From Streptomyces sp. NBRC 110028 (GTDB lineage: Bacteria > Actinomycetota > Actinomycetes > Streptomycetales > Streptomycetaceae): a DNA stretch of 64,000 nt. How positions within the stretch are numbered: the first letter of the stretch is position 1; every line of letters starts with the position of its first letter. The notes beneath the pieces are model-generated. The model did no database searches. It had not been told where the DNA came from and was given only the letters and a program-made list of their open reading frames with translations. Both the position numbers and the translations under genes were made by a program. Shown here piece after piece: positions 2,022-15,035 of this stretch. The stretch lies in the NCBI RefSeq assembly GCF_001417735.1, contig NZ_BBUZ01000034.1, positions 1 to 64,000 of the forward strand. Reading direction: 5' to 3'.

Positions 2022-2762
2022 TCACCCGCAGCCCCCGGCGTGGCCCTGGTCGCCGGACGGGGCGGCCACGAAGTCCGCGTCGGCCGGTGACTCGGGGGTG
2101 GGTGCTCCGGGTACGCGTGGGGGCGCGTCGCGGGAGCGGACCGCCCCCACGAACGCCGGGAGCCGGTCCACGCCCCAGTACTTGTCGTAGCCGAGGGTGA
2201 AGAACGGCACGCCGAACGCCCCGTCCCGGCTGAGGTCCAGCAGCGCCCGCAGCCCGCGCCCGGCGCGCAGCTCCGGGTCGCCGGCGGCACCGGCCATCCG
2301 CTCCGCCACGGCGTCCGGCAGCCCGAGGCCGGTGGCGAGGTCCGCGATGACCTCGCGGTCGCAGATGTCCCGGCCCTCCTGCCAGCGGGCCCGGTAGATC
2401 CGCTCGATGTACGCGGGGCCGCACCCCGCGTCCAGCGCGAGAAAATACGCCAGATGCGGTACTTCCCAGACCGGGTCCCGGTCCACCGGCCAGGTGATGG
2501 GGAGGTCACGGTCGGCGGTCAGACGGCGCACGTCCTGAAGGATATAGAGGTGCTTGTCGCGTGACATCGCCGTGTACGGAAAAGAGCGGCCGTGTTCGGC
2601 CATACGGCGCTCGCCCTCCGCGTCCGGCTCCCACCAGGGGTGCCATTCCACCACCTGTGCGACATCCGGATAGCGGTCCATCAGATCACGGTAGGCGATC
2701 CAGCTGTACGGGCTGCGGAAATTGAAATAGAAGCGCGGCACCCTGCTGCGCCTGGCCGTCAT
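2022..2762 (-). CDS. 2-hydroxychromene-2-carboxylate isomerase / DsbA-family protein
   Basis: A 246-residue thioredoxin-fold protein of the DsbA/HCCA-isomerase (kappa-GST-like) family. The N-terminal FYFNFRSPYSWIAY has the SPYS signature (Ser17) used by HCCA isomerases in place of a CxxC redox motif. The C-terminal GVPFFTLGYDKYWGVDRL is the usual cis-Pro and substrate-loop region. ATG at 2762 follows AGGGGGAA. Lack of CxxC argues against disulfide exchange and for glutathione-type or cofactor-free isomerisation. Within a polyene-type PKS operon a role in E/Z double-bond isomerisation is plausible but inferred. The C-terminal about 35 residues are low-complexity. Confidence 0.78.
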   Translation of the reverse strand: MTARRSRVPRFYFNFRSPYSWIAYRDLMDRYPDVAQVVEWHPWWEPDAEGERRMAEHGRSFPYTAMSRDKHLYILQDVRRLTADRDLPITWPVDRDPVWEVPHLAYFLALDAGCGPAYIERIYRARWQEGRDICDREVIADLATGLGLPDAVAERMAGAAGDPELRAGRGLRALLDLSRDGAFGVPFFTLGYDKYWGVDRLPAFVGAVRSRDAPPRVPGAPTPESPADADFVAAPSGDQGHAGGCG

Positions 2763-2829: not shown

Positions 2830-3573
2830 TCAGATCACGATGCCACCGTCGACCTGGAACACCGCCCCGGTCACATACTCCGCCCCGACCAGGTACGCGA
2901 CCATGTCGGCGACCTCCTCCGGGCGTCCGAAGCGGCGCAGCGGGATGCTCTGCTCCGCGTCCTTGCGCACACTCTCGGACAGTGCCGCGGTCATATCCGT
3001 CTCCACGAAGCCCGGCGCGACCACATTGGCCCGGATGCCGTACCGTCCGACCTCCTTGGCGAGCGATTTGGTGAAGCCGATGATCCCGGCCTTGGAGGCC
3101 GCGTAATTCGACTGTGCCGCATGGCCGTGCACGCCCGCCACCGAGGAGATGTTGATGATGCATCCGGACTTGCGCTTCATCATGCCGAATACGACCGAAC
3201 GGCATATGTGATACGTGCCGTCCAAGTTGACTTCCATGACGCCCCGCCACTCCTCGTCCTTCATCAACAGCAGCGGATTGTCCCGCGCGATGCCCGCGGA
3301 CACCACCGCCACGTCGAGGGGACCGAGCCGGTTCTCGGTGAACGCCACGAAGTCGCGCACCGCGTCCGCGTCCCGTACATCCGTCTGCCGGCCGACCACC
3401 CGGCCGCCGCCGAGCCCCGCCGCCTCGTCCTCCAGGGCGCGGGCCGCGTCGGGGCTGGACTGGTGGCAGAACGCCACGTCGAAACCGTCCCGGGCCAGCC
3501 GCAGCACGGTCGCGCGGCCGATGCCCCGGGAGCCGCCGGAGACGAGGGCCACCTTGCTGTGCGCGTCGGACAT
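2830..3573 (-). CDS. 3-oxoacyl-ACP reductase (ketoreductase, FabG type)
   Basis: A 247-residue classical short-chain dehydrogenase that should reduce beta-ketoacyl-ACP to the 3-hydroxyacyl form with NADPH. The cofactor loop is GGSRGIG (residues 13-19). The catalytic Ser143/Ser144, Tyr157 and Lys161 lie in NISSV and YAASK, and the C-terminus GAVFQVDGGIVI is typical of FabG. It is four bases downstream of the noncanonical dehydratase gene in the same operon, so ketoreduction and dehydration are co-expressed. It is the only FabG-type ketoreductase visible in the cluster. Confidence 0.93.
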   Translation of the reverse strand: MSDAHSKVALVSGGSRGIGRATVLRLARDGFDVAFCHQSSPDAARALEDEAAGLGGGRVVGRQTDVRDADAVRDFVAFTENRLGPLDVAVVSAGIARDNPLLLMKDEEWRGVMEVNLDGTYHICRSVVFGMMKRKSGCIINISSVAGVHGHAAQSNYAASKAGIIGFTKSLAKEVGRYGIRANVVAPGFVETDMTAALSESVRKDAEQSIPLRRFGRPEEVADMVAYLVGAEYVTGAVFQVDGGIVI

Positions 3574-3577
3574 GGTG

Positions 3578-4066
3578 TTACGTCACCTCTCCTGCCGGGG
3601 CCTTCAGTGCGGCGGCCGGGCGCATCGTCATCACCAGCCGCCCGACGGTGAGCACGGTCGCGTCACCGACCAGGCTCTCCCCCTCGAACATGTACGTCTC
3701 CCCGACCCGCCGGGCCAGCCGGACGTGGTGTTCCACCACGTCGCCGGGGAGGACCGGGCGGTGGAATCCGGCGTCGGTGACCCCGCCGAGCAGCATCGCC
3801 ATGCCGTCCAGCACATCCGGATTGGGCTCCTCCCAGGCCACCAGGACCCCCGCCACATGGCACCAGGATTCGAGGAGCACCGTCCAGGGGTAGTGGTAGG
3901 CCTCCGCGGGCGCGTCGTCGGGGACGGCCTCATACCAGGGCTCGTTGCAGGTGACGGCCTTGAGGCCACGGGCGCGCGTCCCCGGGACCAGCTCGGTGAC
4001 CCGGTCGACCAGCAGCATGGGGTAGCGGTGCGGCAGCACCCGCTTGATCTGGTCCACGGTGATCAT
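3578..4066 (-). CDS. Noncanonical FabZ/FabA-like hot-dog dehydratase
   Basis: A 162-residue hot-dog protein. The N-terminus, LPHRYPMLLVDRV, is nearly identical to the FabZ opening, but the usual GHFPxxPxxPGV active-site segment is replaced by AYHYPWTVLLES. A His (58) and Glu (66) remain, yet six residues between them are missing compared with FabZ. The gene starts at 4066 in an ATGA overlap with the canonical dehydratase stop, so the two are translationally coupled and may form a heterodimer, as reported for paired dehydratases in other highly reducing type II systems. It could be a structural partner rather than an independent enzyme. A longer in-frame start at 4459 would overlap the upstream gene and is rejected. 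Confidence 0.82.
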   Translation of the reverse strand: MITVDQIKRVLPHRYPMLLVDRVTELVPGTRARGLKAVTCNEPWYEAVPDDAPAEAYHYPWTVLLESWCHVAGVLVAWEEPNPDVLDGMAMLLGGVTDAGFHRPVLPGDVVEHHVRLARRVGETYMFEGESLVGDATVLTVGRLVMTMRPAAALKAPAGEVT

Positions 4067-4473
4067 CCGGTGGCCTCCCGTTTCTCGCGAGCGCCGAAGC
4101 GCAGCCGCACGCGCGCGGCGAGCCCGCGCTCGGTGGTGGCCTCGGCGCGGCAGCGCCAGTCGCCCGTCGCGTCGTCCCGCGACCAGGTGAACTCGCAGCT
4201 GAGGGTGGAGCCGGGGAAGACCGGGCCGAGGAAGCGGGCGGACTCGACCGCCGCCAGGGCGCCGCCCGGTTCGGGCAGCGTGGCGAGGGCGCCGCGCTGG
4301 ACGTACTCGACGACGCACACCCCGGGGAAGATCGGGAAGCCGGGGAAGTGACCGGCGAACACCTTTTCCGTGCCGCCGATCACGGCCACGCACCGGGCGG
4401 GCCGCTCCCCCGGCGCCCCGGCGTCGACCACCTCGACGGTGCCGTCGACCGGTCCGCACGCGGTCGCCGTCAC
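4063..4473 (-). CDS. 3-hydroxyacyl-ACP dehydratase (FabZ-like)
   Basis: A 136-residue single hot-dog protein with a full FabZ active-site motif, GHFPGFPIFPGV (His42) followed by Glu56, the spacing found in FabZ. It should dehydrate 3-hydroxyacyl-ACP to trans-2-enoyl-ACP. The start lies one base from the ACP stop (4475) and the stop overlaps the next dehydratase by ATGA. The position beside ACP, second dehydratase and ketoreductase makes a compact beta-carbon-processing set. The N-terminus is shorter than FabZ and lacks the PHRYP segment, which is carried by the partner protein instead. Confidence 0.88.
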   Translation of the reverse strand: MTATACGPVDGTVEVVDAGAPGERPARCVAVIGGTEKVFAGHFPGFPIFPGVCVVEYVQRGALATLPEPGGALAAVESARFLGPVFPGSTLSCEFTWSRDDATGDWRCRAEATTERGLAARVRLRFGAREKREATG

Positions 4474-4474
4474 C

Positions 4475-4729
4475 TCACTTCTCCAGCTTCGACGCGAGCA
4501 GGTCGTGCACCTTCCGCAGGGTGGTGATGCTCTTCATCTCCCGCTCCTCCAGCTTCACCGCGTACTTCTTCTCCAGTTCGACCATGACCTCCAGGGCCAT
4601 GAGCGAGTCGACGCCGAGGTCCTTGACGAATTCGGCCTCGTCGGTCACCTCCTCCTCGTCGACGTCGAGGACTTCCGCGACGAAGGTGCGCAGTTCGTCG
4701 AGGTCCAGGGCGGCGGTGGCGTCGGCCAT
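4475..4729 (-). CDS. Acyl carrier protein 2
   Basis: An 84-residue acidic acyl carrier protein with the phosphopantetheine site LGVDSLMALE (Ser42). It probably carries the growing chain during ketoreduction, dehydration and possibly enoyl reduction, because its gene directly precedes the dehydratase and ketoreductase genes. The sequence is clearly different from the ACP at 14784-15035, so the cluster has two carriers with likely different tasks, for example initiation versus elongation (inference). Confidence 0.94.
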   Translation of the reverse strand: MADATAALDLDELRTFVAEVLDVDEEEVTDEAEFVKDLGVDSLMALEVMVELEKKYAVKLEEREMKSITTLRKVHDLLASKLEK

Positions 4730-5008: not shown

Positions 5009-6184
5009 TCACCGGGTCCGCAGCAGGGCCGCGCCGACCACGCCGTCCCGGTCGATCGTGGTGACCAGGGCCGGACTGCCGGGGGCGATCTCGCCGTGCT
5101 CGGCGAGCGCGAGGACGGCCGCGATCTGGAACGCCGCCGAGGCGGCGCAGGTGTCGCCGATGGCGTCGGCCGTCGCCACCCGCAGCGGCCGGTGCCCGCC
5201 GAGGACATCGGCGAGGGCGGCCCGCTCGGCCTCGCCCTCGGCGCCGGGCGCCTGGGCGTCGGCGAGGGCCCGTACGTCGCCGGGTGCGGTGCCGGTACGG
5301 TCCAGCAGCCGCGTCACGGCGTCGGCGAGCGCCGTACGGGCCGCCGTCGGGTCCGCGGCGAAGCCGAACTCCACGCCCGCGACGTCGGCGAGCCCGCCGC
5401 GGCCGTGTTCGCGGGCCTCGTCGGCGGTCTCCAGCAGCCAGACCGCGGCGCCCTCGCCGAGCACGGCCGTCGCGTCGTCGTCGGCGCGGGTGTGCCACTC
5501 CAGCCAGGCGCGGGCGGAGGTGAACTCCTCGACCGCCCCGCACAGCACGGTGCGGGCGCGGCCCGCGCGCTGGAGCCGCAGCGCGTACCGCAGGGTGAGC
5601 AGCCCGGCGGCGCGGCCGCCCGCGATGGTGGTGTTGGGGCCCTTGAGGCCGTGCCAGATGGCGGACTGTCCGGCCGCGCAGTTCATGACGGTGTTGGGGA
5701 AGCGGGCCGGATCCACGAAGAAGGGCTTGGCGCCGACGAGCGAGTCGCGGGTGAAATCCATGATGGACTGGGCGCTTCCGGTGCTGGTGCCGAGCGCGAT
5801 GCCGGTGTGCTCGCCGACGCCCGGCAGCCGTGTCGCCCCGTCGCCGCCGGCCGCGCCGCGTCCGCCGTCCCGTGCGCCCTCCCGTACGCCGCCGCGCCCG
5901 CTTTCGCTCTCGCCGGACAGCAGATGACGGATCGCGGTGACGGCGAGGCCGGTGACCCGGTCCATGGAGCGGGTGTTCTTACGGCCGAGGATCTCCCGGA
6001 TGTGGAAGTCCGGGACGAGGCACGCCTCGCGGAACGGCACCGACCACTCCTCGGGGTCCAGCGGCTTGCCGGTGCCGCGGCCGGACCGCAGCCCGCTGCT
6101 GAAGTCCGCGGCCCGCAGTCCCAGGGGCGATACGGCGGTCCAGGCGGAGATGACCGGGCTGACCGCGGCGGGAGCGTTGACCAT
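5009..6184 (-). CDS. Ketosynthase-like protein lacking the catalytic triad (CLF-type)
   Basis: A thiolase-fold ketosynthase homologue of 391 residues from ATG 6184, which has GAAGGAG upstream. An in-frame start at 6265 would run into the preceding gene. The ketosynthase landmark HGLKGPNTTIAGGRAAG aligns with FabF LRGPxxxIATACTSG and puts Arg191 in place of the nucleophilic Cys. The HGTGT and GHxxGAAG histidine motifs are also absent. It can therefore only be a chain-length-factor-like or scaffolding partner. No neighbour with an intact triad overlaps it, so its partner is uncertain; the unpaired ketosynthase at 13511-14746 is a candidate. Confidence 0.85.
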   Translation of the reverse strand: MVNAPAAVSPVISAWTAVSPLGLRAADFSSGLRSGRGTGKPLDPEEWSVPFREACLVPDFHIREILGRKNTRSMDRVTGLAVTAIRHLLSGESESGRGGVREGARDGGRGAAGGDGATRLPGVGEHTGIALGTSTGSAQSIMDFTRDSLVGAKPFFVDPARFPNTVMNCAAGQSAIWHGLKGPNTTIAGGRAAGLLTLRYALRLQRAGRARTVLCGAVEEFTSARAWLEWHTRADDDATAVLGEGAAVWLLETADEAREHGRGGLADVAGVEFGFAADPTAARTALADAVTRLLDRTGTAPGDVRALADAQAPGAEGEAERAALADVLGGHRPLRVATADAIGDTCAASAAFQIAAVLALAEHGEIAPGSPALVTTIDRDGVVGAALLRTR

Positions 6185-6231: not shown

Positions 6232-6630
6232 TCACAGGAACCACACCTGTTCGTAGGAGGGCCATCGCGCGGCGAGCCCGTGCGCCTCGATCACCCGCAC
6301 GCCGGGCAGCAGCCGGTCGGCGGCGGTGCGCCCCAGCGCGGTCAGGTCGGGCCGCTCGACCAGCACGGTCACCCCGGCGTCGAGGAGCTTCACGACCGAC
6401 GCGCGCGGATCGGGCAGGGTGTCCAGGGTGCGCCCGCCGAGGCGCAGCGGCGGCTGGGGTTCGGCGCGCAGGGCGTAGCCGGCGGCGGGTCCGCGCAGCG
6501 CCAGGTGGCAGCCCCCGCCGCTCCGCCGGTGCAGATCGGGGACGACGTAGAGGGCGTCCGCGAACTGGGTCTCGACCGATCCGCGATACGCCTTCTCCAT
6601 GATCAGCAGCCAGCGCGCCTGTTCCTTCAT
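6232..6630 (-). CDS. DsrE-family-like protein (third of three)
   Basis: A 132-residue protein whose layout fits the DsrE/DsrF/TusB fold: a strand LLIMEKAY, a hydrophobic segment containing Cys41 (GGGCHLALRG), then TVLVERPDL and a C-terminal EQVWFL strand. Homology is inferred from this pattern and from two neighbouring DsrE-like genes. Members of the family relay sulfur as persulfides (DsrEFH, TusBCD) or bind small acidic ligands. ATG at 6630 lies four bases after the previous stop. Its role in a polyketide operon is unknown. Confidence 0.6.
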   Translation of the reverse strand: MKEQARWLLIMEKAYRGSVETQFADALYVVPDLHRRSGGGCHLALRGPAAGYALRAEPQPPLRLGGRTLDTLPDPRASVVKLLDAGVTVLVERPDLTALGRTAADRLLPGVRVIEAHGLAARWPSYEQVWFL

Positions 6631-6634
6631 CGGT

Positions 6635-7042
6635 TCAGCACACCCCCATGACCAGGCTTTTGTCCGCCGCCTTGACATGTTCGGCGAACAGGAACGGGGA
6701 CCGCTTGCTGACCTGGGGGATCTGGTCGGCCGCGCCTCGGTCGTCGGCGCAGAAGCGGCAGACGTACCAGTAGAGCCGGTCGGGGTGGTCGGCGAGCAGG
6801 TCGCGGACGATCAGCGCGGTGGACGGGTGGCGGCGCTCCAGGTCGGTGAGGTCGCGCGGTTTGGTGTCGCCGAGGGCCGCGCTGGTCAGGCGGGTGGCGT
6901 CGCCGCAGGTCCAGATCTGCACCCGGGCGCCGCGGTCGAGGAGCGCGGTGGCCAGCCGGAGCGCCGAGGTGACCAGGTCGCTCTGGTGGGGCGCGCCGAA
7001 GAGGTTGAGCAGCACATCGGTGGCGGGTATGGGCCGGGCCAT
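6635..7042 (-). CDS. DsrE-family protein with CxxC and C-terminal cysteine
   Basis: A 135-residue DsrE-like protein. It opens with a strand/loop/helix typical of the family (VLLNLFGAPHQSD), has Cys46 in WTCGDATRL, a CxxC pair at Cys95/Cys98 (YVCRFC) and ends in VMGVC with Cys135 as the last residue. The cysteine set suggests redox or persulfide chemistry or metal binding. It overlaps the previous DsrE-like gene by one base (TGATG), so these genes are translationally coupled. A terminal cysteine recalls DsrC/TusE swinging arms, but the fold is not DsrC; the comparison is only functional speculation. Confidence 0.7.
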   Translation of the reverse strand: MARPIPATDVLLNLFGAPHQSDLVTSALRLATALLDRGARVQIWTCGDATRLTSAALGDTKPRDLTDLERRHPSTALIVRDLLADHPDRLYWYVCRFCADDRGAADQIPQVSKRSPFLFAEHVKAADKSLVMGVC

Positions 7043-7368
7043 CAGTGCCACACCGCCCGCACTCGGGGTTCCAGCAGCTTGGCGGCCACGTCGTCCATCT
7101 CCACCATGCGGACGTCGGGGGTGAGGTCGGCGGCGGGCAGGGCGCGTTGGGCGGCCGAGAAGGTGTCCACCCACACCTCGCCGCCGTCGCGCAGGAGGGT
7201 CTCGATGCCGGGCGCGGCGCCGGGGAGGGCGGCGGTGACCCCGTTCTCGACGAGGAACAGCACCACCCGGTGGCCGTCCCCGGCCAGCCGTGCCGCGTCG
7301 CCGACGAAGCGCTCGCACGCGGGCCCGGTCTGCGGGCCGCCGCTCTCGATCAGCAGGTGGTCCGTCAT
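7042..7368 (-). CDS. DsrE-family protein (first of three)
   Basis: A 108-residue protein with the DsrE/TusD pattern: HLLIESGGPQTG, a helix with Cys18, the strand RVVLFLVENGV, then a LRDGGEVWVDTFSA segment and a C-terminal strand. It starts at 7368 in an ATGA overlap with the enoyl reductase stop and overlaps the next gene by one base. Together the three genes look like a hetero-oligomeric DsrE-type complex comparable to TusBCD. No DsrC/TusE partner, sulfurtransferase or desulfurase is visible nearby. Confidence 0.68.
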   Translation of the reverse strand: MTDHLLIESGGPQTGPACERFVGDAARLAGDGHRVVLFLVENGVTAALPGAAPGIETLLRDGGEVWVDTFSAAQRALPAADLTPDVRMVEMDDVAAKLLEPRVRAVWH

Positions 7369-8156
7369 GTGAGCAGTTCACCGCCGTCCACGCCGATCAC
7401 ATTGCCGGTGATCCAGGAGGAGTCGGTGCGCGACAGCAGGGAGACGGCCTCGGCGATGTCCTCCGGGCGGGTGAGCCGCCGGTGCGGGTTGAGGTCGCGG
7501 GCGTACGCGGCGAGCTGTTCGCTGTCGGGGATGCGCTCCATGGACGGGGTGGGGGTGACCCCGGCGCGCAGCGCGTTGACGGCGATGCCGGAGGGGGCGA
7601 GTTCCAGGGCGAGTTGGCGTACGTGGGACTCCAGGGCGGCCTTGGCGGCGGAGACGGCCCCGTAGTGGGGCATGACGCGGGTGCCTCCGGCGGAGGTCAT
7701 CGCGTACACCTTGGAGCCCCGGCGCAGCAGGCCCGCGGTGAACAGGTCCTGGGTCCAGTAGACGAGGGAGTGCGCCATCACGTCGAGCGTCATGTTCATC
7801 TGACGGGAGGTGACGCTGCCCTCGCCGTCGGGGGTGACGTACGGCAGCAGGGTGCCGAACGCGAGGGAGTGGACCAGGACGCGGATGCCCGTGCCGCCGG
7901 TCAGCTCCGCGAACCTCGGCAGCAGCTCCTCGCGGGTGCGGGCGGAGGCGGCGTTGGCGTTGAAGAAGTGCGCCTGGACGCCGTGCGCGCGCATCTCCTC
8001 CTGGGCGACCGCCGCCTTCTCCTGGCCCTCGGTGGTGTCGAAGTGGACGCCCAGGATGCCGACGCCCGCGCGGGCCAGCTCGTGGGCGATGGCCAGGCCC
8101 ATGCCGCTGGAGGCGCCCAGGACCAGGCACCAGGATCCTTCGAGTGAGGTGATCAT
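7365..8156 (-). CDS. Enoyl-ACP reductase (FabI-type SDR)
   Basis: A 263-residue reductase. The nucleotide loop is GASSGMG; VLVHSLAFG matches the FVHSIGF region of FabI. The catalytic pair is Tyr165-x6-Lys172 (HYGAVSAAK), the divergent YX6K spacing of FabI/FabL enoyl reductases rather than the YX3K of ketoreductases. It should reduce trans-2-enoyl-ACP to acyl-ACP, so at least part of the polyketide is probably fully saturated. ATG at 8156 lies 25 bp after the CLF stop, and its own stop overlaps the first DsrE-like gene by ATGA. Confidence 0.83.
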   Translation of the reverse strand: MITSLEGSWCLVLGASSGMGLAIAHELARAGVGILGVHFDTTEGQEKAAVAQEEMRAHGVQAHFFNANAASARTREELLPRFAELTGGTGIRVLVHSLAFGTLLPYVTPDGEGSVTSRQMNMTLDVMAHSLVYWTQDLFTAGLLRRGSKVYAMTSAGGTRVMPHYGAVSAAKAALESHVRQLALELAPSGIAVNALRAGVTPTPSMERIPDSEQLAAYARDLNPHRRLTRPEDIAEAVSLLSRTDSSWITGNVIGVDGGELLT

Positions 8157-8181: not shown

Positions 8182-9129
8182 TCATCGGCTGCTCGCTTCG
8201 GCGCCGCCGGATCCGCCCGGGGTGACCAGGCAGACGGCGGTGTTTCCCTCGGCCGCCGCGGTGACGACGGCGTGTGCGTGGTCCGTCGGGTGCCGCAGGG
8301 CGGCGGCGACGTGTGCCAGCGGCGCGAGGCAGCCCGCGCCCGCCGGGACGCGTTCGGCCCCGGGGAACGCCGCCACGACCGCCTCGCCCACCGCCTCGCC
8401 GACCGGGGAGCCGTCCAGGACGGCGGTGACGGTCGGCGGGGTGCCCGGCCGGTGGCCGAGGGCGGCGAGCGCGTCCCGCAGCGCCTCCGCTGCCGCCCCG
8501 GCGCCGCCGGCCGGGACGGCGAGGGCGGGCGGCAGGAAGAACGTGACGACTCCGACGCGCCCGTACGCCCGGCCGCCGCGCTCCGCGACGGCCGCCGCGG
8601 GCTCCAGCAGCAGCGCGACGGCACCGGCCTCCGAGGTGTCCGCGCCCGGCTCGCCCTCCGGCAGCGCCTCCTCCGTCGCCCCGGCCAGCAGCCGGGAGGC
8701 GCGCCCGGCGGCGACGGCGCGGGCCCCGGTCTGCAGCGCCTCCAGGCCCGCGACGCGGGGGCTGGTGACGGTGAGGTTGAACCCCTTGAGGTCGTGTTCG
8801 GTGGCCAGCCTGCTGCCGAAGAGGTTGATGGAGAAGTAGGGCGCGGTGGCCGGGCTCAGCGCCCCGGCACCGCCCGCCCCGACGACCGTACGGTTCATCG
8901 CGTGGTGCAGGGAGGTGGCCGCGCTGTTGGTGCCCACCGCGGCGCCGCGGCGCTCGGGTCCGGCCGCCGTCAGCGCGTCCTCGCCCGCGTCGGCGAGGGC
9001 GCGCTTGGCGGCGGCCAGCACGTACTGGGAGGCGCTGGGCAGGTACTTGTAGCCGCGGCGGCCCAGCTCGGCACGGAAGTCGAAGCCGTCCGCCTCCACC
9101 TCGCCCACGCCCGTGACCAGGAGATCCAT
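8182..9129 (-). CDS. Short chain-length-factor-like ketosynthase homologue
   Basis: A 315-residue ketosynthase-fold protein, about 80 residues shorter than its neighbours. The segment LKGFNLTVTSPRVAG aligns with the FabF Cys loop and has Arg125 at the nucleophile position; the HGTGT and GH motifs are not recognisable. ATG at 9129 shares one base with the stop of the intact ketosynthase upstream (TGATG), the coupling expected for a KS-CLF heterodimer. It would therefore pair with the ketosynthase at 9129-10319 and set its chain length or specificity. Confidence 0.87.
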   Translation of the reverse strand: MDLLVTGVGEVEADGFDFRAELGRRGYKYLPSASQYVLAAAKRALADAGEDALTAAGPERRGAAVGTNSAATSLHHAMNRTVVGAGGAGALSPATAPYFSINLFGSRLATEHDLKGFNLTVTSPRVAGLEALQTGARAVAAGRASRLLAGATEEALPEGEPGADTSEAGAVALLLEPAAAVAERGGRAYGRVGVVTFFLPPALAVPAGGAGAAAEALRDALAALGHRPGTPPTVTAVLDGSPVGEAVGEAVVAAFPGAERVPAGAGCLAPLAHVAAALRHPTDHAHAVVTAAAEGNTAVCLVTPGGSGGAEASSR

Positions 9130-10319
9130 CAGCGGGCCTCCCCGAAGACGAGGGAGATGTTGTTGCCGCCGAAGGCGTAGGCGTTGACCAGCCCGAATCC
9201 GCCGCTCAGCGGGGTGCTTTCCGACGGCAGCGGCACCGCGCACTCCGGATCGGCCGCCCCGACGGGCACGTTCGGCGGCAGCGTGCGGTGGTGCAGCATC
9301 AGGGCGGCGGCCAGCGCGGCGAACGCGCCCGCCGCGCCGCCGGTGTGGCCGATGAGCGCCTTCAGGCTGTACAGCGGGGGCGCCGCCGCGCCCAGCACGG
9401 TGGTGAGCACCCGGCTCTCCACCACGTCGTTGAGATCGGTGCCGGTGCCGTGCGGCACCACGAACCCGACCTCGCCCTCCCCCGCCTCGCGCAGCGCCTC
9501 GCGCAGCGCCTCGCGCAGCGCGCGCTCGATCTGCCCGCCGCCGGGCTCGGGCGCGGTCGCGTGGTGGGCGTCGCAGCTCCAGCCGCTGCCCGCCAGGCGG
9601 GCGTAGCCGGGCCCGGCGCCCCGGGCGCGGGCGTGCGCGGCGGACTCCAGGACCAGGACGGCGGCACCCTCGCCGAAGACCGTGCCGCGCCGGTCGGCGG
9701 CGAACGGGCGGCAGCGCTCGGGGTCGATGGCGCCCAGCCGGTTGAAGCAGGCGAGCGCGACCCGGGAATACGCCTCGGCGCCGCCCGCGAACACCACGTC
9801 CGCCTCGCCCGAGCGGATCAGGTCGGCGGCGACGGACAGCGCGTAGCCACTGGCGGAACAGGCGTTGCTGACGCACAGGTTGGGGCCGCGCGCGCCGAGC
9901 AGGCCGCCGACCGCCGAGGCGACCGGGAAGACGGGCGCCCAGCGGCCCGTGCCCGGGGCCTCGCCCGTCCACCACGCCTCGTGCAGCTCCGTGTCGCCCA
10001 TACCGCTGCTGATCGCGACGGCCACCCGGCGCGGGTCGACGCCGCCCGGCTCCGCGAGCCCCGCGTCCCGGGCCGCCTCCCGGGCCGCCTCGATCGCGAA
10101 CCGCGAGCCGCGCCCCAGCGGCAGCCCCTCCCACTCCGCGGGGCCCTCCGGCACATCGGCCCCGGGCACCAGATACATCCGCGGATGGTCCATGTGGGCG
10201 AGGGGGTCGGGCACCCGGGACGGGGCGGTGCGCGCGGTGTGCATACCGCGCCAGAAGGCGTCCGCGCCCCCTCCCAGCGGCGACAGCGCCCCCACCCCGG
10301 TGACCAGCACGTCGTCCAT
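9129..10319 (-). CDS. Beta-ketoacyl synthase (KS, intact triad), partner of the short CLF
   Basis: A 396-residue type II ketosynthase catalysing decarboxylative condensation of malonyl-ACP with the growing chain. The catalytic residues are Cys154 (SNACSASGYA), His290 (VPHGTGT) and His325 (LIGHTGGAAGA). Residues about 268-279 repeat the unit REAL, encoded by 12-bp direct repeats near 9486-9525. It overlaps the upstream thioesterase-like gene and the downstream CLF gene by single bases. It is one of three complete ketosynthases here, which suggests division of labour between initiation and elongation rounds (inference). Confidence 0.94.
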   Translation of the reverse strand: MDDVLVTGVGALSPLGGGADAFWRGMHTARTAPSRVPDPLAHMDHPRMYLVPGADVPEGPAEWEGLPLGRGSRFAIEAAREAARDAGLAEPGGVDPRRVAVAISSGMGDTELHEAWWTGEAPGTGRWAPVFPVASAVGGLLGARGPNLCVSNACSASGYALSVAADLIRSGEADVVFAGGAEAYSRVALACFNRLGAIDPERCRPFAADRRGTVFGEGAAVLVLESAAHARARGAGPGYARLAGSGWSCDAHHATAPEPGGGQIERALREALREALREAGEGEVGFVVPHGTGTDLNDVVESRVLTTVLGAAAPPLYSLKALIGHTGGAAGAFAALAAALMLHHRTLPPNVPVGAADPECAVPLPSESTPLSGGFGLVNAYAFGGNNISLVFGEAR

Positions 10320-11299
10320 CAGGTGCCGCTCGGCTTTCCGGCCAGCGCGTCCAGCACCCGCTGGTCGAAGGGGACCAGATGCCAGTCGCGGCGGTTCTCG
10401 ATCAGCGCGTAGCCGTGCACGATGCCGCCGGTGGCGGTGAGGGTGAGCGCGCCGTCGCGGACCGCGTAACAGTCCATGCGGGCGGTGTAGGTGAGGTCCT
10501 TGAAGATCTCCTCCACCGTGTAGACGGTGTACAGGTCCTCCTCCATCAGCGCCTCGCCGGTGATCCGTATCCAGGAGCGCGGCACGACCGGTATCCAGCC
10601 GCGCTCGTCCAGCAGCGTCTTGATGGAGATGCCGCGGGACTTCACGAACCGGTCCTTGGCCTCCTCCATCAGCCGCAGATAGCCGGACATCTGCAGCCGC
10701 TCGGTGAAGTGGCAGTAGGGGTAGGTGATGCTCCACTTCCAGGCGTGGGTGTTACGGCCCTCCGTGAGCGCCGCCAGCACGGTCCGCTCGTCGCCGTCCG
10801 GCACCGCCGGGCGCGGCTCGGCGGGCGCGCCCTCGCCCAGCCGGTCCACCGTGAACCGGCCGAACTCGCCGGGCGGTTCGGCGGCCCCCGTCAGATAGGT
10901 GTCGGCGCGCAGCGAGGCCCGGACCTTGGCGGTGACGGCCTTGAGGACGGAGCCGTCGCGGACGATGCGCAGGGTCACCCGGAAGCCGAGCGCCGTATCG
11001 CCGTCGGAGGTCCGCGGCACCACCTCGGCCTCGGCCTCGTCGTCCAGGTGGAGGGCGTGCAGGATGCGACTGTCCAGCTCCACGATGTCCAGCCCGAGCC
11101 CGTGCTCCTCGTACAGCCGGCGGGCGGGCGCCCCGCTGCGGGCGAAGTGGACCAGCACCGCCTCCTCGATCAGATAGTTGACGTGCTTGAAGCCGATCCA
11201 GGTGCAGATGTTGGAGCCCTCGTACCGCGGCCGCAGCCGCACCGTGGTGGTGTCGGTCAGCAGGGCCTTCGTCGACGTCGGCGGGGCGGCGGCTCTCAT
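10319..11299 (-). CDS. Double hot-dog thioesterase-like protein
   Basis: A 326-residue protein made of two 4HBT-type hot-dog halves. The first half holds TWIGFKHVNYLIEEAVLVHF (about residues 33-52), the second YPYCHFTERLQMSGYLRLME and a long strand region ending near WHLVPFD. Such fused hot-dog proteins occur as acyl-thioesterases or dehydratases. The paired FabZ-like genes already supply dehydration, so chain release or proofreading is more likely, though unproved. It sits between two KS-CLF pairs with one-base overlaps on both sides, so it is produced stoichiometrically with them. Confidence 0.72.
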   Translation of the reverse strand: MRAAAPPTSTKALLTDTTTVRLRPRYEGSNICTWIGFKHVNYLIEEAVLVHFARSGAPARRLYEEHGLGLDIVELDSRILHALHLDDEAEAEVVPRTSDGDTALGFRVTLRIVRDGSVLKAVTAKVRASLRADTYLTGAAEPPGEFGRFTVDRLGEGAPAEPRPAVPDGDERTVLAALTEGRNTHAWKWSITYPYCHFTERLQMSGYLRLMEEAKDRFVKSRGISIKTLLDERGWIPVVPRSWIRITGEALMEEDLYTVYTVEEIFKDLTYTARMDCYAVRDGALTLTATGGIVHGYALIENRRDWHLVPFDQRVLDALAGKPSGT

Positions 11300-12363
11300 C
11301 AGGTGCACTCCAGGGCTGAAATCTCTGACATCGCTGAAACCTCTGGCGTCCGCCGCCCGCCCGGCCCGCGCAGCAGCAACCCGGCCACGGCGTCCGCCGT
11401 GTCGTCGCCGCTGGTGATCAGCGCCTGGCCCGCCCCGGCTTCGGCCCCGGCGGTGCCGAGCCAGCCGACCGCGGCGGCGCACTGGAGGACGCCGAGCGCG
11501 CCGGAGGCGCGGCCGACGGCGGTGGTGACGTCGTGCCGCGGTACGGCAGGGGGCACGGGTGCGTCGGATGCCGGCTCCTGGTAGCGCTCCGGGGTGAACC
11601 AGACGCCCGGCCCGTCACCGCCCTCCGGCAGCAGGGCCCGCACGCAGCCCGCGAGCCCCGCCCGGCGCTCGTACGGCCCCAGGACGGCGAGGGCGCGCGC
11701 CCCGCGCTGCTCCGCCCAGCGCGCGCCCTCGACGACGAGGGCGGCCGCGCCGTCCAGCAGGTCGTCGGCGGGCCGGGCGAGCAGGTCCTCGACGACGGCG
11801 TTGTGGGTTTCGGCGCCGACCACCAGGGCGCGGCGGACGCGGCCGGCGGCCACGAGCGTCGCGGCCCAGTGGACGGCGTCGAGACCGGACGTCGGCCCGT
11901 TGCACAGCATCAGGTTGGGGCCGCGCAGCCCGTGCCGGATCGCGACCCAGGAGGCGATCACATTGCTGGAGGCGTTCGGCAGGCTCATGGGGCTCAGGGA
12001 GCGGGCCGACCCCTCGGCGATCGCGGCGGCGGTGAGGCACGCGGTGTCGAGGTTGCCCAGGTTGGAGCTGGCCACCACGCCGACGGTGTCGCCCGGCACG
12101 GTCAGCGTCCCGCCGTCGGCGTCATCGGCGGGGACGAGGGCGGCGTCGCGTAACGCGTCGAGCGCGGCGCACAGCGCGAGTTGGGTCGCCCGGTCCTTGT
12201 AGCGGTGCCCGCGGCGGCCGATGCGGGCACCGGTGTCGAACGGTTCGGGGGCGTGCCCCAGGGCGCGCGCGCCGCGCAGCAGCGCGTCCGGGGTGTCCGC
12301 GCCGGGCAGGGCCAGCCCGACCCCGGAGACGACGACGGCGCCGGGTGCGCGCGGCTCGGTCAC
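11299..12363 (-). CDS. Chain-length factor (KS-beta-like)
   Basis: A 354-residue ketosynthase homologue. HGLRGPNLMLCNGPTSGLDA aligns exactly with the FabF Cys loop and places Pro157 at the nucleophile; the region replacing GHxxGAAG reads AVGRASGALG, with Arg for His. It is therefore a non-condensing CLF. The GTG start at 12363 overlaps the stop of the upstream KS by GTGA, marking these two as a KS-CLF pair. Codon 71 (12151-12153) is TTA, so its translation should need the bldA tRNA. The last about 20 residues are poorly conserved in appearance. Confidence 0.9.
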   Translation of the reverse strand: MTEPRAPGAVVVSGVGLALPGADTPDALLRGARALGHAPEPFDTGARIGRRGHRYKDRATQLALCAALDALRDAALVPADDADGGTLTVPGDTVGVVASSNLGNLDTACLTAAAIAEGSARSLSPMSLPNASSNVIASWVAIRHGLRGPNLMLCNGPTSGLDAVHWAATLVAAGRVRRALVVGAETHNAVVEDLLARPADDLLDGAAALVVEGARWAEQRGARALAVLGPYERRAGLAGCVRALLPEGGDGPGVWFTPERYQEPASDAPVPPAVPRHDVTTAVGRASGALGVLQCAAAVGWLGTAGAEAGAGQALITSGDDTADAVAGLLLRGPGGRRTPEVSAMSEISALECT

Positions 12364-13505
12364 CGGTCGGCCCTCTCCACGATGGCGACGGCGTTGACCC
12401 CGCCGAACCCGAACGCGTCGATCTGGGCGAACCGCAGGGGCTCCCCGCCGCAGGACTCCCGGACGAAGCGGAAGCCCTTCGCCTCGGGCAGCGGGTCGGT
12501 GAGGCCGAGGGTCGGCGGAATCCGGCCCGAGGTCAGCGACTTCAGCGCCACGATCAGGCTGACCAGGCCCGAGCTGCCCGAGGTGTGGCCCGTCATCGAC
12601 TTGATCGCGGTCATCCGCGGCGTCGTGACGTCCGGGCCGAAGACCTCGGCGATCGCGGTCGCCTCCGCGCTGTCGTTGAGCTGCGTACCGGTGCCGTGCA
12701 GCAGCACCAGGTCGATGTCGCCGGGGGTGACGCCCGCCCGCTGCTGGGCCTCGTGCACCGCCCGCACGATGCCCCGCGCGTCGGGCGCGGTGACATGGCT
12801 CGCGTCGCAGTTCATGCTGACGGCGCGAAGCCTGCCCAGCGCGCCGGAGCGCGCGCCGGGCTCCTCCCGGCGCAGCACCACCGCGGCGGCGCCGTCGCCC
12901 ATCAGCACCCCGCGGCGCTCCCGGTCGAACGGCCGCACCCGGTCCGGCGGTTCGGCGTTCACCCGGTCCAGCAGCCCGTACATGCTCTCGGTGAGGGTGT
13001 CGACCCCGGCCACGATCACGGTGTCCTCGGCGCCGGCGGCCAGCAGGTCGCTGCCGAGCGCCAGCGCGTACAGCGAGGCCGAGCACGCCCCCGCGAAGGT
13101 GTGGGTGCGCACCGCGCCGAACCGCTCGCGCAGCGCGGTGCCGAAGTGCAGCCGCGCCCCGGTGTCGAACGGGGTGCCGTCGCACCAGGCCAGCTCCGCC
13201 GAGCGCAGCTCGCGCAGCCCGGTGCCGACGAGGACCGGCACCCCGCTCAGGTCCTCGCCGAGCCCGGCCTGCCGCGCCGCCTCCCCGACGGCGCGCAGCA
13301 GCCACGCGGTGGCCCGGCCGGGCACATCGGCGCCCGGTCCCGGCCGGTCGTCGATCTCGTACGCGTGCCGCCCCCGGTAGCGCCCGGGGTCGAAGCCGCG
13401 CAGTTCACCGAGTCCGCTGGTGCCCGCGCACAGGGCCGCGAAGACCTCGTCGACGCCCTCGCCCACACTCACCACGGCGCCCGCGCCGGTCACCAGCTGA
13501 CTCAT
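12360..13505 (-). CDS. Beta-ketoacyl synthase (KS), partner of the CLF at 11299-12363
   Basis: A 381-residue ketosynthase with Cys141 (FAGACSASLYAL), His270 (LLHGTGTQLND) and His307 (MTGHTSGSSG), so all catalytic residues are present. The N-terminus is shorter and more divergent than that of the next ketosynthase, and the loop before the Cys lacks the usual GP element. It begins five bases after the upstream KS stop and is coupled to the following CLF by a GTGA overlap. The product and substrate preference cannot be read from sequence. Confidence 0.93.
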   Translation of the reverse strand: MSQLVTGAGAVVSVGEGVDEVFAALCAGTSGLGELRGFDPGRYRGRHAYEIDDRPGPGADVPGRATAWLLRAVGEAARQAGLGEDLSGVPVLVGTGLRELRSAELAWCDGTPFDTGARLHFGTALRERFGAVRTHTFAGACSASLYALALGSDLLAAGAEDTVIVAGVDTLTESMYGLLDRVNAEPPDRVRPFDRERRGVLMGDGAAAVVLRREEPGARSGALGRLRAVSMNCDASHVTAPDARGIVRAVHEAQQRAGVTPGDIDLVLLHGTGTQLNDSAEATAIAEVFGPDVTTPRMTAIKSMTGHTSGSSGLVSLIVALKSLTSGRIPPTLGLTDPLPEAKGFRFVRESCGGEPLRFAQIDAFGFGGVNAVAIVERADR

Positions 13506-13510
13506 GCGTT

Positions 13511-14746
13511 TCAATTCCAGTCCGTGCCGCGCTTGCCGAAGATCACGACGGCGTTGTTGCCGCCGAAGGCGAGCCCGTTGTTCTGTACGACCCTCAGCTC
13601 GGCGTCCACCGCCTCGTTCGGTACGACGTCGAGACCGCACTCCGGGTCGGTCTCCTCGTGGTTGATGGTCGGCGGGATGAACCCCTCGGTGAGGGCCAGC
13701 GCGCAGGCGATGGAGGCGAGCGCCCCGGCGGCCCCCATGGAGTGGCCGATCATCGACTTGATGGACACCGTGCGCGGCGGCGCGGCGTCGCCGAAGACCT
13801 GGCGGATGGCGCGGGCCTCGGTGATGTCGTTGGCCCGGGTGCCGGTGCCGTGCGCGGAGATGAAGTCGACCTCCTCCGGCTTGATCCGGGCGTCGTCGAG
13901 GGCGAGCCGCATACAGCGGGCCACGCTGTCCTGGTTGGGGGCGACGGGGTGGTCCGCGTCGCAGTTGAGGCCGTAGCCGAGGACTTCGGCGTAGATCCGG
14001 GCGCCGCGGGCCAGCGCCGACTCCAGGCTCTCCAGGACGAGGACGCCCGCGCCCTCGCCGGTGAGGATGCCCTTGCGGTCCTTGTCGAACGGCTGGCAGC
14101 GCTCGGGCGCTATGGTGCCCAGCCGGTAGAAGCCGGTGAAGGTCTTGCGGCACAGGGCGTCGGCGCCGCCGCACAGGGCGATCTCCACGTCCCCGCCGCG
14201 GATGGCGTCGTAGCCGTAGCCGATGGCGTAGTTGCCCGCCGCGCACGCCGTGGGGAGGGTGACCGCCTCGGTCCGGCTCAGGCCGAACTCCGCCGCGATG
14301 ACGGCCGAAAGCCGCCCGGCGGGCACCCGGCGGGCGACGGTGGGGTCCATCCGCTCGGGCCCGAGGTCGACCTCCGTCTCGACGAGCTGGTCCAGGTCGC
14401 CCGACTCGCCGTCGGTGGTGCCGATGGAGATCAGCGACGGGAGGGCGCGCAGCGCGTCCTCCGCGACACCTGCGTCGGCCACCGCCATGCGGGCCGCCGC
14501 CACCGAGAACTGGCTCGCCCTGCCCAGGTTCTCCACATCCAGATGGTGGATCCACCGCCCGGGTTCGAAGTCCGGGACCTCACATGCCATCGCATGCTCG
14601 AAACCCTCGGTGTCGAACGCGGTGACCGGCCGTGCCGCGCTCTTCCCGGCGCGCAGTCCGGCGAGGAATTCCGCGGTGCCGACGCCGATGCCGGACACCG
14701 CCCCGAGGCCGGTGACGACGACCCTGCGACCCGACTCACCACGCAT
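13511..14746 (-). CDS. Beta-ketoacyl synthase (KS-alpha, intact triad, no adjacent CLF)
   Basis: A 411-residue FabF/KS-alpha-type synthase with Cys168 (LPTACAAGNYA), His299 (SAHGTGTRAND) and His335 (MIGHSMGAAGA). ATG at 14746 has GGAAGG nine bases upstream. Unlike the other two ketosynthases it has no CLF overlapping its stop; the next gene is another complete KS. It may act alone as a FabF-like homodimer or pair with the degenerate partner at 5009-6184. It directly follows ACP1, so these two are likely cognate. Confidence 0.94.
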   Translation of the reverse strand: MRGESGRRVVVTGLGAVSGIGVGTAEFLAGLRAGKSAARPVTAFDTEGFEHAMACEVPDFEPGRWIHHLDVENLGRASQFSVAAARMAVADAGVAEDALRALPSLISIGTTDGESGDLDQLVETEVDLGPERMDPTVARRVPAGRLSAVIAAEFGLSRTEAVTLPTACAAGNYAIGYGYDAIRGGDVEIALCGGADALCRKTFTGFYRLGTIAPERCQPFDKDRKGILTGEGAGVLVLESLESALARGARIYAEVLGYGLNCDADHPVAPNQDSVARCMRLALDDARIKPEEVDFISAHGTGTRANDITEARAIRQVFGDAAPPRTVSIKSMIGHSMGAAGALASIACALALTEGFIPPTINHEETDPECGLDVVPNEAVDAELRVVQNNGLAFGGNNAVVIFGKRGTDWN

Positions 14747-14783: not shown

Positions 14784-15035
14784 TCACCAGCCGGCCGCGT
14801 CGGAAACAACCTCGTAGACGCCCCTGAGGTGCACCATCCGGCCCAGCTCGGCCTGGTCGATGACGACGTTGAACGTTTTTTCGAGCGCCGCGAGTATTTC
14901 AATGGCACGCAGCGAATCAGCGTCATGCTCTTCTTTGAAGAGGCTGGTCTCGGTGACCTCGTCCGGGTCGATCTCAAGGATATCCGTGACGATTTCCTTG
15001 ATGGTTTCCCGACGCTCTTCGACGATGGCGGCCAT
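14784..15035 (-). CDS. Acyl carrier protein 1
   Basis: An 83-residue acyl carrier protein with the 4'-phosphopantetheine attachment serine at Ser41 (HDADSLRAIE). It is the first gene of the PKS operon; ATG at 15035 follows a perfect GGAGGT ribosome site. The acidic helix II and length fit standalone type II ACPs. Being promoter-proximal and next to a FabF-type ketosynthase, it may be the main elongation carrier. Confidence 0.94.
   Translation of the reverse strand: MAAIVEERRETIKEIVTDILEIDPDEVTETSLFKEEHDADSLRAIEILAALEKTFNVVIDQAELGRMVHLRGVYEVVSDAAGW

Follow-up and report, generated by a model that had tools for sequence, protein, structure and literature searches.

Why should three small proteins resembling DsrE be encoded within an operon for a type II polyketide synthase (PKS)? 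The question is raised by a 64,000-nucleotide stretch of Streptomyces sp. NBRC 110028 (hereafter the window), which is the start of its contig and in which an initial annotation had described three consecutive open reading frames (ORFs) of 108–135 aa, interpreted as a possible sulfur or thiol relay acting on the polyketide or on a thioester/thiol-bearing intermediate. All three are present, on the minus strand, as D1 (7042..7368, 108 aa), D2 (6635..7042, 135 aa) and D3 (6232..6630, 132 aa), and because the trio is conserved in 37 loci, chance ORFs are excluded. The genes had been described as coupled by overlaps to each other and to a FabI-type reductase; this is correct for the FabI-like/D1 junction (an ATGA overlap) and for the D1/D2 junction (a TGATG overlap), whereas D2 and D3 lie 4 nt apart without overlap. 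The CxxC of D2 (residues 95–98) and its Cys135 are both there, as had been described.

Fold of the three proteins and the surrounding operon

Searched against the Pfam DsrE profile (PF02635), a check that the initial annotation had proposed, D1 scored 21.4 bits, D2 scored 18.7 bits and D3 gave no match, so that none of the window proteins reached the gathering cut-off of 22.7 bits; NCBIfam gave no match for D1, D2 or D3. Among relatives of D1, DsrE matched 17 of 25 and DsrH 6 of 25; DsrE matched 7 of 26 D2 relatives, and no family matched any of 23 D3 relatives (all at E≤0.01). Against profiles of solved structures, the top match was DsrH for D1 (2hy5_C, E 0.04), YchN for D2 (1jx7, E 0.0034) and MTH1491 for D3 (E 0.053), each of these matches being weak alone; we take YchN and MTH1491 to be members of the DsrE superfamily. 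Structure prediction, likewise proposed earlier, was informative for D2 and D3 as single chains, with D1 being placed by profile. The AlphaFold2 models (pLDDT 80.8 for D2 and 83.1 for D3) found their best matches in 3mc3 for D2 (Z 12.8, rmsd 2.6, 115 residues aligned) and in YchN for D3 (Z 13.5, rmsd 2.8, 116 residues aligned), and chain 2hy5_A of DsrEFH scored Z 12.1 and 12.2 with D2 and D3, respectively. The first unrelated structures followed at Z 5.6 (D2) and 5.1 (D3); Foldseek was also run, and a designed cage, 8uja, scored like 2pd2 with both models. At the level of models, these comparisons settle D2 and D3 as proteins of predicted DsrE fold, and the profiles class D1 as a probable DsrE/DsrH-like protein, in agreement with the family first proposed. 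Subunit by subunit, D1 thus resembles DsrH/TusB, D2 resembles DsrE/YchN and D3 resembles the DsrE fold generally. By hhalign, the D1 and D3 profiles matched one another with a probability of 94.7%, and neither matched D2 (1.4% and 0.5%). The sole DsrE match above the Pfam cut-off in the host genome (G000:C43:64097-64405) lies on a contig other than that of the trio.

The trio is located between two arms of a PKS operon that is read from the minus strand throughout. Overlapping the start of D1 is an SDR of FabI type, a possible enoyl reductase (7365..8156, Pfam PF13561), and beyond it are CLF2, a ketosynthase (KS)-like protein without active-site Cys (8182..9129; Pfam, sequence and motif search), and KS4, a ketosynthase with the Cys in NACSASG (9129..10319; Pfam and sequence reading, with no match in the motif script). 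From 10319 upward, gene names come from sequence reading and conservation, without Pfam: a double-hotdog-like protein conserved in cinnamoyl-type clusters (10319..11308), then, with motif search in addition, CLF1, KS-like without the Cys (11299..12363), and KS2 (12360..13505) and KS1 (13511..14746), both with the Cys, and finally ACP1 (14784..15035), 72% identical to the kcn4-position ACP discussed below. On the other side of the trio are KSE, a KS-like protein without Cys (5009..6184; Pfam and motif search), ACP2 (4475..4729, Pfam PP-binding), a hotdog dehydratase-like protein (4063..4473, Pfam FabA 24.2 bits), a FabA/FabZ-like dehydratase (3578..4066, Pfam FabA), a ketoreductase (2830..3573; Pfam; 69% to the kcn14 position) and a DSBA-fold protein (2022..2762; Pfam DSBA; 51% to the kcn15 position), which we take to be related to the enzyme that isomerises polyenes (cis-trans) in cinnamoyl clusters. 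The operon therefore holds three ketosynthases with an active-site Cys (KS1, KS2, KS4), three KS-like proteins without it (CLF1, CLF2, KSE), two ACPs, dehydratase-like hotdog proteins, one ketoreductase and one DSBA-fold isomerase. After filtering, none of the ORFs listed for the window exceeds 660 aa, and so none is of NRPS size. In Streptomyces himastatinicus the operon continues to a carboxylase gene and then to a hydrolase and a phosphopantetheinyl-transferase-like gene, the latter named by reading. With its three KS/CLF sets, the window resembles in this number the youssoufene and globisporamic acid systems described in the accessible part of the literature (PMC9381841). As to the product, a free cinnamoyl lipid is our guess.

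Conservation and probable correspondence to Kcn17-Kcn18-Kcn19

A search with D2 across 297 Streptomycetaceae genomes gave 24 matches, of which 23 were kept; genome G196 was set aside, its D2 match being weak (E 4.8e-4) and its stretch holding no relatives of the window PKS genes (L064). The trio is thus found in 23 of the 297 sampled genomes. A scan of named genomes added 14 loci, 13 of them at 78–98% identity, which we presume to belong to species of the S. violaceusniger group, and one in S. abyssalis at 59%; the nearest is that of S. himastatinicus, with a D2 98% identical to that of the window. A phylum-wide draw of 396 genomes, a sparse sample, contained the trio once, in the window's own genome. 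The presence of D2 in all 37 loci (23 genomes and 14 named loci) follows from selection, because D2 was the query that located them. On either side of D2 stand D1 and D3, in unchanged order in 37/37, and relatives of the window PKS genes were found in 36 of the 37 fetched stretches, the exception being a contig of 4,164 bases (L045). These counts uphold the earlier description of a three-gene unit within a PKS operon.

Residue conservation was assessed over 37 rows, the window plus 36 loci; two entries (L040 and L041) are one place, and L041 was left out of the residue counts and kept in those of gene order and PKS neighbours. Invariant in D2 are Cys46, Cys95 and Cys98 (37/37 rows), and Cys135 is kept in 17/37 rows and so is not invariant. 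D1 has invariant Glu8, Asp24, Asp68 and a C-terminal Val-Trp-His, and no conserved Cys across the 37 rows, the commonest being C18 in 17. Invariant in D3 are Arg16-Gly17, Tyr28, Leu45-Arg46-Gly47 and Trp123. D1 and D2 were also found in six Streptomyces plasmid records of 256–737 kb (PLSDB hits H1–H6); the three that were examined (L066–L068) are linear and carry NRPS genes. The presence of trio genes on plasmids suggests that the system may travel. In three annotated plasmids, eight of the nine trio genes are annotated as hypothetical, and the present assignment gives a name to three proteins that mostly carry that label. One genome (G061) has two trios on two contigs, with PKS genes beside each (L053 and L055).

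The probable identity of the trio comes from genome G140, in which a glycosyltransferase matches Kcn28, the crystallised kitacinnamycin enzyme (PDB 6j31, 6j32), without a difference over 388 residues. The G140 locus must therefore be either the kcn cluster or a copy almost identical to it, and its trio very probably sits in the kitacinnamycin cluster. Window and G140 proteins are 42% (D1), 60% (D2) and 49% (D3) identical. When the ACP of G140 is set as kcn4 and genes from a crude gene caller are counted from there, the ketoreductase becomes 14, the DSBA-fold isomerase 15, a UbiB-like protein 16, D3 17, D2 18, D1 19, a small membrane protein 20, the NRPS genes 21–23, the P450 27, the glycosyltransferase 28 and a second DSBA-fold protein 33 (genes 16 and 20 being named by reading). 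Published numbers, as given in the sections available of the respective papers, assign Kcn4 to the ACP (PMC9321520), kcn4–15 and kcn33 to the type II PKS set with kcn14 as ketoreductase, and Kcn21–23, Kcn27 and Kcn28 to NRPS, P450 and glycosyltransferase. They fit the G140 count, by which D3-D2-D1 correspond to Kcn17-Kcn18-Kcn19. Two points do not fit: the gene published as a KS, kcn7, corresponds in the G140 count to a CLF-type protein that lacks the active-site Cys, and the published cluster is given, in the portion seen, as ~55 kb with 41 ORFs, whereas kcn4 to kcn33 already span ~60 kb in G140. A UbiB/AarF-like gene, named by reading, lies beside the trio in the kcn locus of G140 at the kcn16 position (L043, 7407-9479), and the NBC_01431 plasmid cluster has one annotated AarF/UbiB gene (L066, 28441-30354).

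For Kcn17-Kcn18-Kcn19, a single, second-hand sentence in PMC9321520 reports that, on the way to kitacinnamycin, they close a polyene to form a benzene ring. Therefore the role that the initial annotation did not know to be described has been reported, and it very probably holds for the window trio as well. The kitacinnamycin system, from Kitasatospora, shares with the window three adjacent homologues in fixed order with PKS surroundings. The two differ in placement, the G140 trio following the isomerase on the other strand and the window trio having the FabI-like gene on one side and KSE on the other, and in that the kcn cluster has NRPS genes, for which the filtered ORFs of the window offer none of sufficient size. 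Benzene-ring formation of the same kind is reported, in the text seen, for the youssoufene cyclase YsfX (printed YssX in PMC9321520), although a paper cited there speaks in its title of two distinct cyclases. What may be new here is the link of this cyclase to DsrEFH/TusBCD and the three invariant D2 cysteines. Among the matches listed in searches of the open literature, no paper tied a Kcn17-19-type cyclase to the DsrE fold, and none was found for DsrE together with a biosynthetic gene cluster or with a ketosynthase; in the parts of three further papers that were available, kcn is not mentioned (PMC13311259) and there is nothing on the trio (PMC9230751, PMC13144596). Were the link new, it would give the cyclase a fold, an assembly model and three cysteines to mutate, and make ring closure and oxidation directly testable.

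Proposed role of the trio and competing readings

According to available sections of earlier work, the products of polyene type II PKSs that include an isomerase are cinnamoyl lipids and the cinnamoyl moieties of nonribosomal peptides (PMC9381841, PMC6510318), the isomerase acting as a cis-trans polyene isomerase in cinnamoyl clusters (PMC9381841, PMC9321520). Counted at E≤1e-15, the isomerase is present in 53 of the 297 genomes: 22 of the 23 trio genomes compared to 31 of the 274 others (Fisher p 9e-18). The one trio genome without a match, G039, has its trio on a contig of 4,164 bases. The trio thus marks a subset of the clusters with a DSBA-fold isomerase, and would serve as a genome-mining marker for polyene clusters that form an aryl ring.

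With considerable confidence, we take D1-D2-D3 to be a hetero-oligomeric cyclase that is orthologous to Kcn19-Kcn18-Kcn17 and gives a benzene ring. The basis presented here comprises homology, the gene-order match to Kcn17-19, the joint conservation of the three genes and their linkage to genes of a polyene PKS, the predicted fold and the invariant cysteines; the ring-closing activity is taken second-hand from the excerpt of PMC9321520, and we infer that the trio assembles into a complex. KS/CLF pairs, ketoreductase and dehydratases would build an ACP-bound polyene, in which the DSBA-fold isomerase would set one cis double bond. The trio would then bind the cis-polyene on the ACP, close the chain by 6-pi electrocyclisation and carry the closed ring on to benzene, which would leave an acyl chain of cinnamoyl type (ortho-substituted aryl). 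Its subunits may assemble like those of DsrEFH/TusBCD, which form an alpha2 beta2 gamma2 hexamer. The earlier proposal that the trio acts on the polyketide is, on this evidence, most likely right.

How the cysteines of D2 would contribute is a separate matter. The D2 model places Cys46 close to where the strand 41–47 ends, Cys95 as the last residue of the strand 90–95 and Cys98 in the next helix, an arrangement consistent with one shared edge. As judged from this model, it is plausible that Cys46, Cys95 and Cys98 might act as a dithiol/disulfide that takes the two electrons of aromatisation, or might briefly add to the polyene through a thiol. That the three residues are directly catalytic we consider possible but less likely than not, and their invariance invites a test of thiol chemistry. 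The far-reaching version, in which a complex of DsrEFH/TusBCD type was recruited from sulfur trafficking as a cysteine-dependent pericyclase/aromatase whose Cys46/Cys95/Cys98 form a thiol/disulfide centre adding to or oxidising the polyene, appears to us unlikely; if true, it would be new chemistry for the DsrE fold, with a polyketide aromatised by protein thiols and not by flavin or metal.

Since general chemistry allows 6-pi closure, in principle, to occur spontaneously, the trio might also be a non-catalytic template that holds the cis-polyene in its reactive conformation, or docks the ACP and KSE; oxygen or a further enzyme would then do the oxidation, and the cysteines would be structural. 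KSE adjoins the trio in 26 of the 37 loci, which makes docking or a template a serious rival, and C46, C95 and C98 could bind a metal; we nevertheless rate the template as unlikely, because the modelled cysteines, located where strands end and a helix begins, lie near the region in which DsrE-type proteins carry their active Cys, and this favours chemistry. A quite different function would be that of a thiol cofactor or reductant, recycling the thiol that the DSBA-fold isomerase would need to isomerise the polyene. The near-constant company of the isomerase in trio genomes and the invariance of the D2 cysteines would suit it, but 31 of the 53 isomerase genomes are without the trio, so that the isomerase does not need the trio in general; thiol supply was dropped for this reason and is very improbable.

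The sulfur relay originally proposed, in which D2 would hand on a persulfide to either the polyketide or an intermediate bound as a thioester, draws on the DsrE fold, on a conserved CxxC in D2 and on TusA, which is present in 23/23 trio genomes. DsrEFH of Allochromatium and TusBCD of Escherichia coli are likewise three-protein sets of DsrE fold. In the portion of PMC3397948 that was available, sulfur goes from DsrE Cys78 to DsrC, and DsrH Cys20 matters in vivo. DsrC/TusE, which had been noted as missing from the sequence, was found in 0/23 trio genomes (the E. coli control being positive), TusA is in every one of the 23 (draft assemblies) either on another contig or separated from the trio by more than 1.5 Mb, D1 has no conserved cysteine where DsrH has Cys20, and the DsrH-like gene comes first. 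The invariant CxxC of D2 aligns with that of YchN; this E. coli protein (1jx7) shares the CxxC with D2 and the fold with both D2 and D3. YchN is a single protein and not a trio. The missing DsrC/TusE, the distant TusA and the lack of a conserved cysteine in D1 lower the relay reading strongly, and with orthologues reported as a cyclase in the cited passage of PMC9321520 it was dropped as first choice and is now most improbable. A thio-polyketide product, as in sulfenicin, was also dropped; the one paper found with that word concerns, by its title, a Penicillium.

Isomerase clusters without the trio

The reading of the trio as an aryl-forming cyclase directs attention to the 31 isomerase genomes outside the trio set, in which 60 stretches contained no match to D1–D3. 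Four genomes (G255, with L127 and L128; G107, L105; G237, L122; G276, L134) show near-identical gene order with the trio missing, and their operons are natural controls for trio function. Since the trio is absent there, ring formation in such genomes, if any, needs something else. A comparison of 31 trio-minus with 28 trio-plus loci found no replacement cyclase family, within stretches of ~18–80 kb that may miss one. An epoxinnamide cluster is reported, in the part of PMC9321520 seen, to have no Kcn17-19 homologue although the product has an aryl ring.

The two sets of clusters differ in other gene families, for which the names are assumed from resemblance in sequence. An SbnA-like PLP enzyme family is present in 18 of 31 trio-minus and 0 of 28 trio-plus clusters, and among the trio-minus clusters (L099–L158) an SbnB-like family occurs in 16/31 and a halogenase-like flavoprotein in 13/31. 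Trio-minus clusters with SbnA-like genes probably represent another product class from the same polyene PKS. An FAD oxidoreductase family, which we presume to be phytoene-desaturase-like, is present in 5 of 28 trio-plus and 1 of 31 trio-minus clusters, with members in L066 (22112-23788) and in G285 (L135, 17918-19594), and might in certain clusters serve as the dehydrogenase that aromatises the ring.
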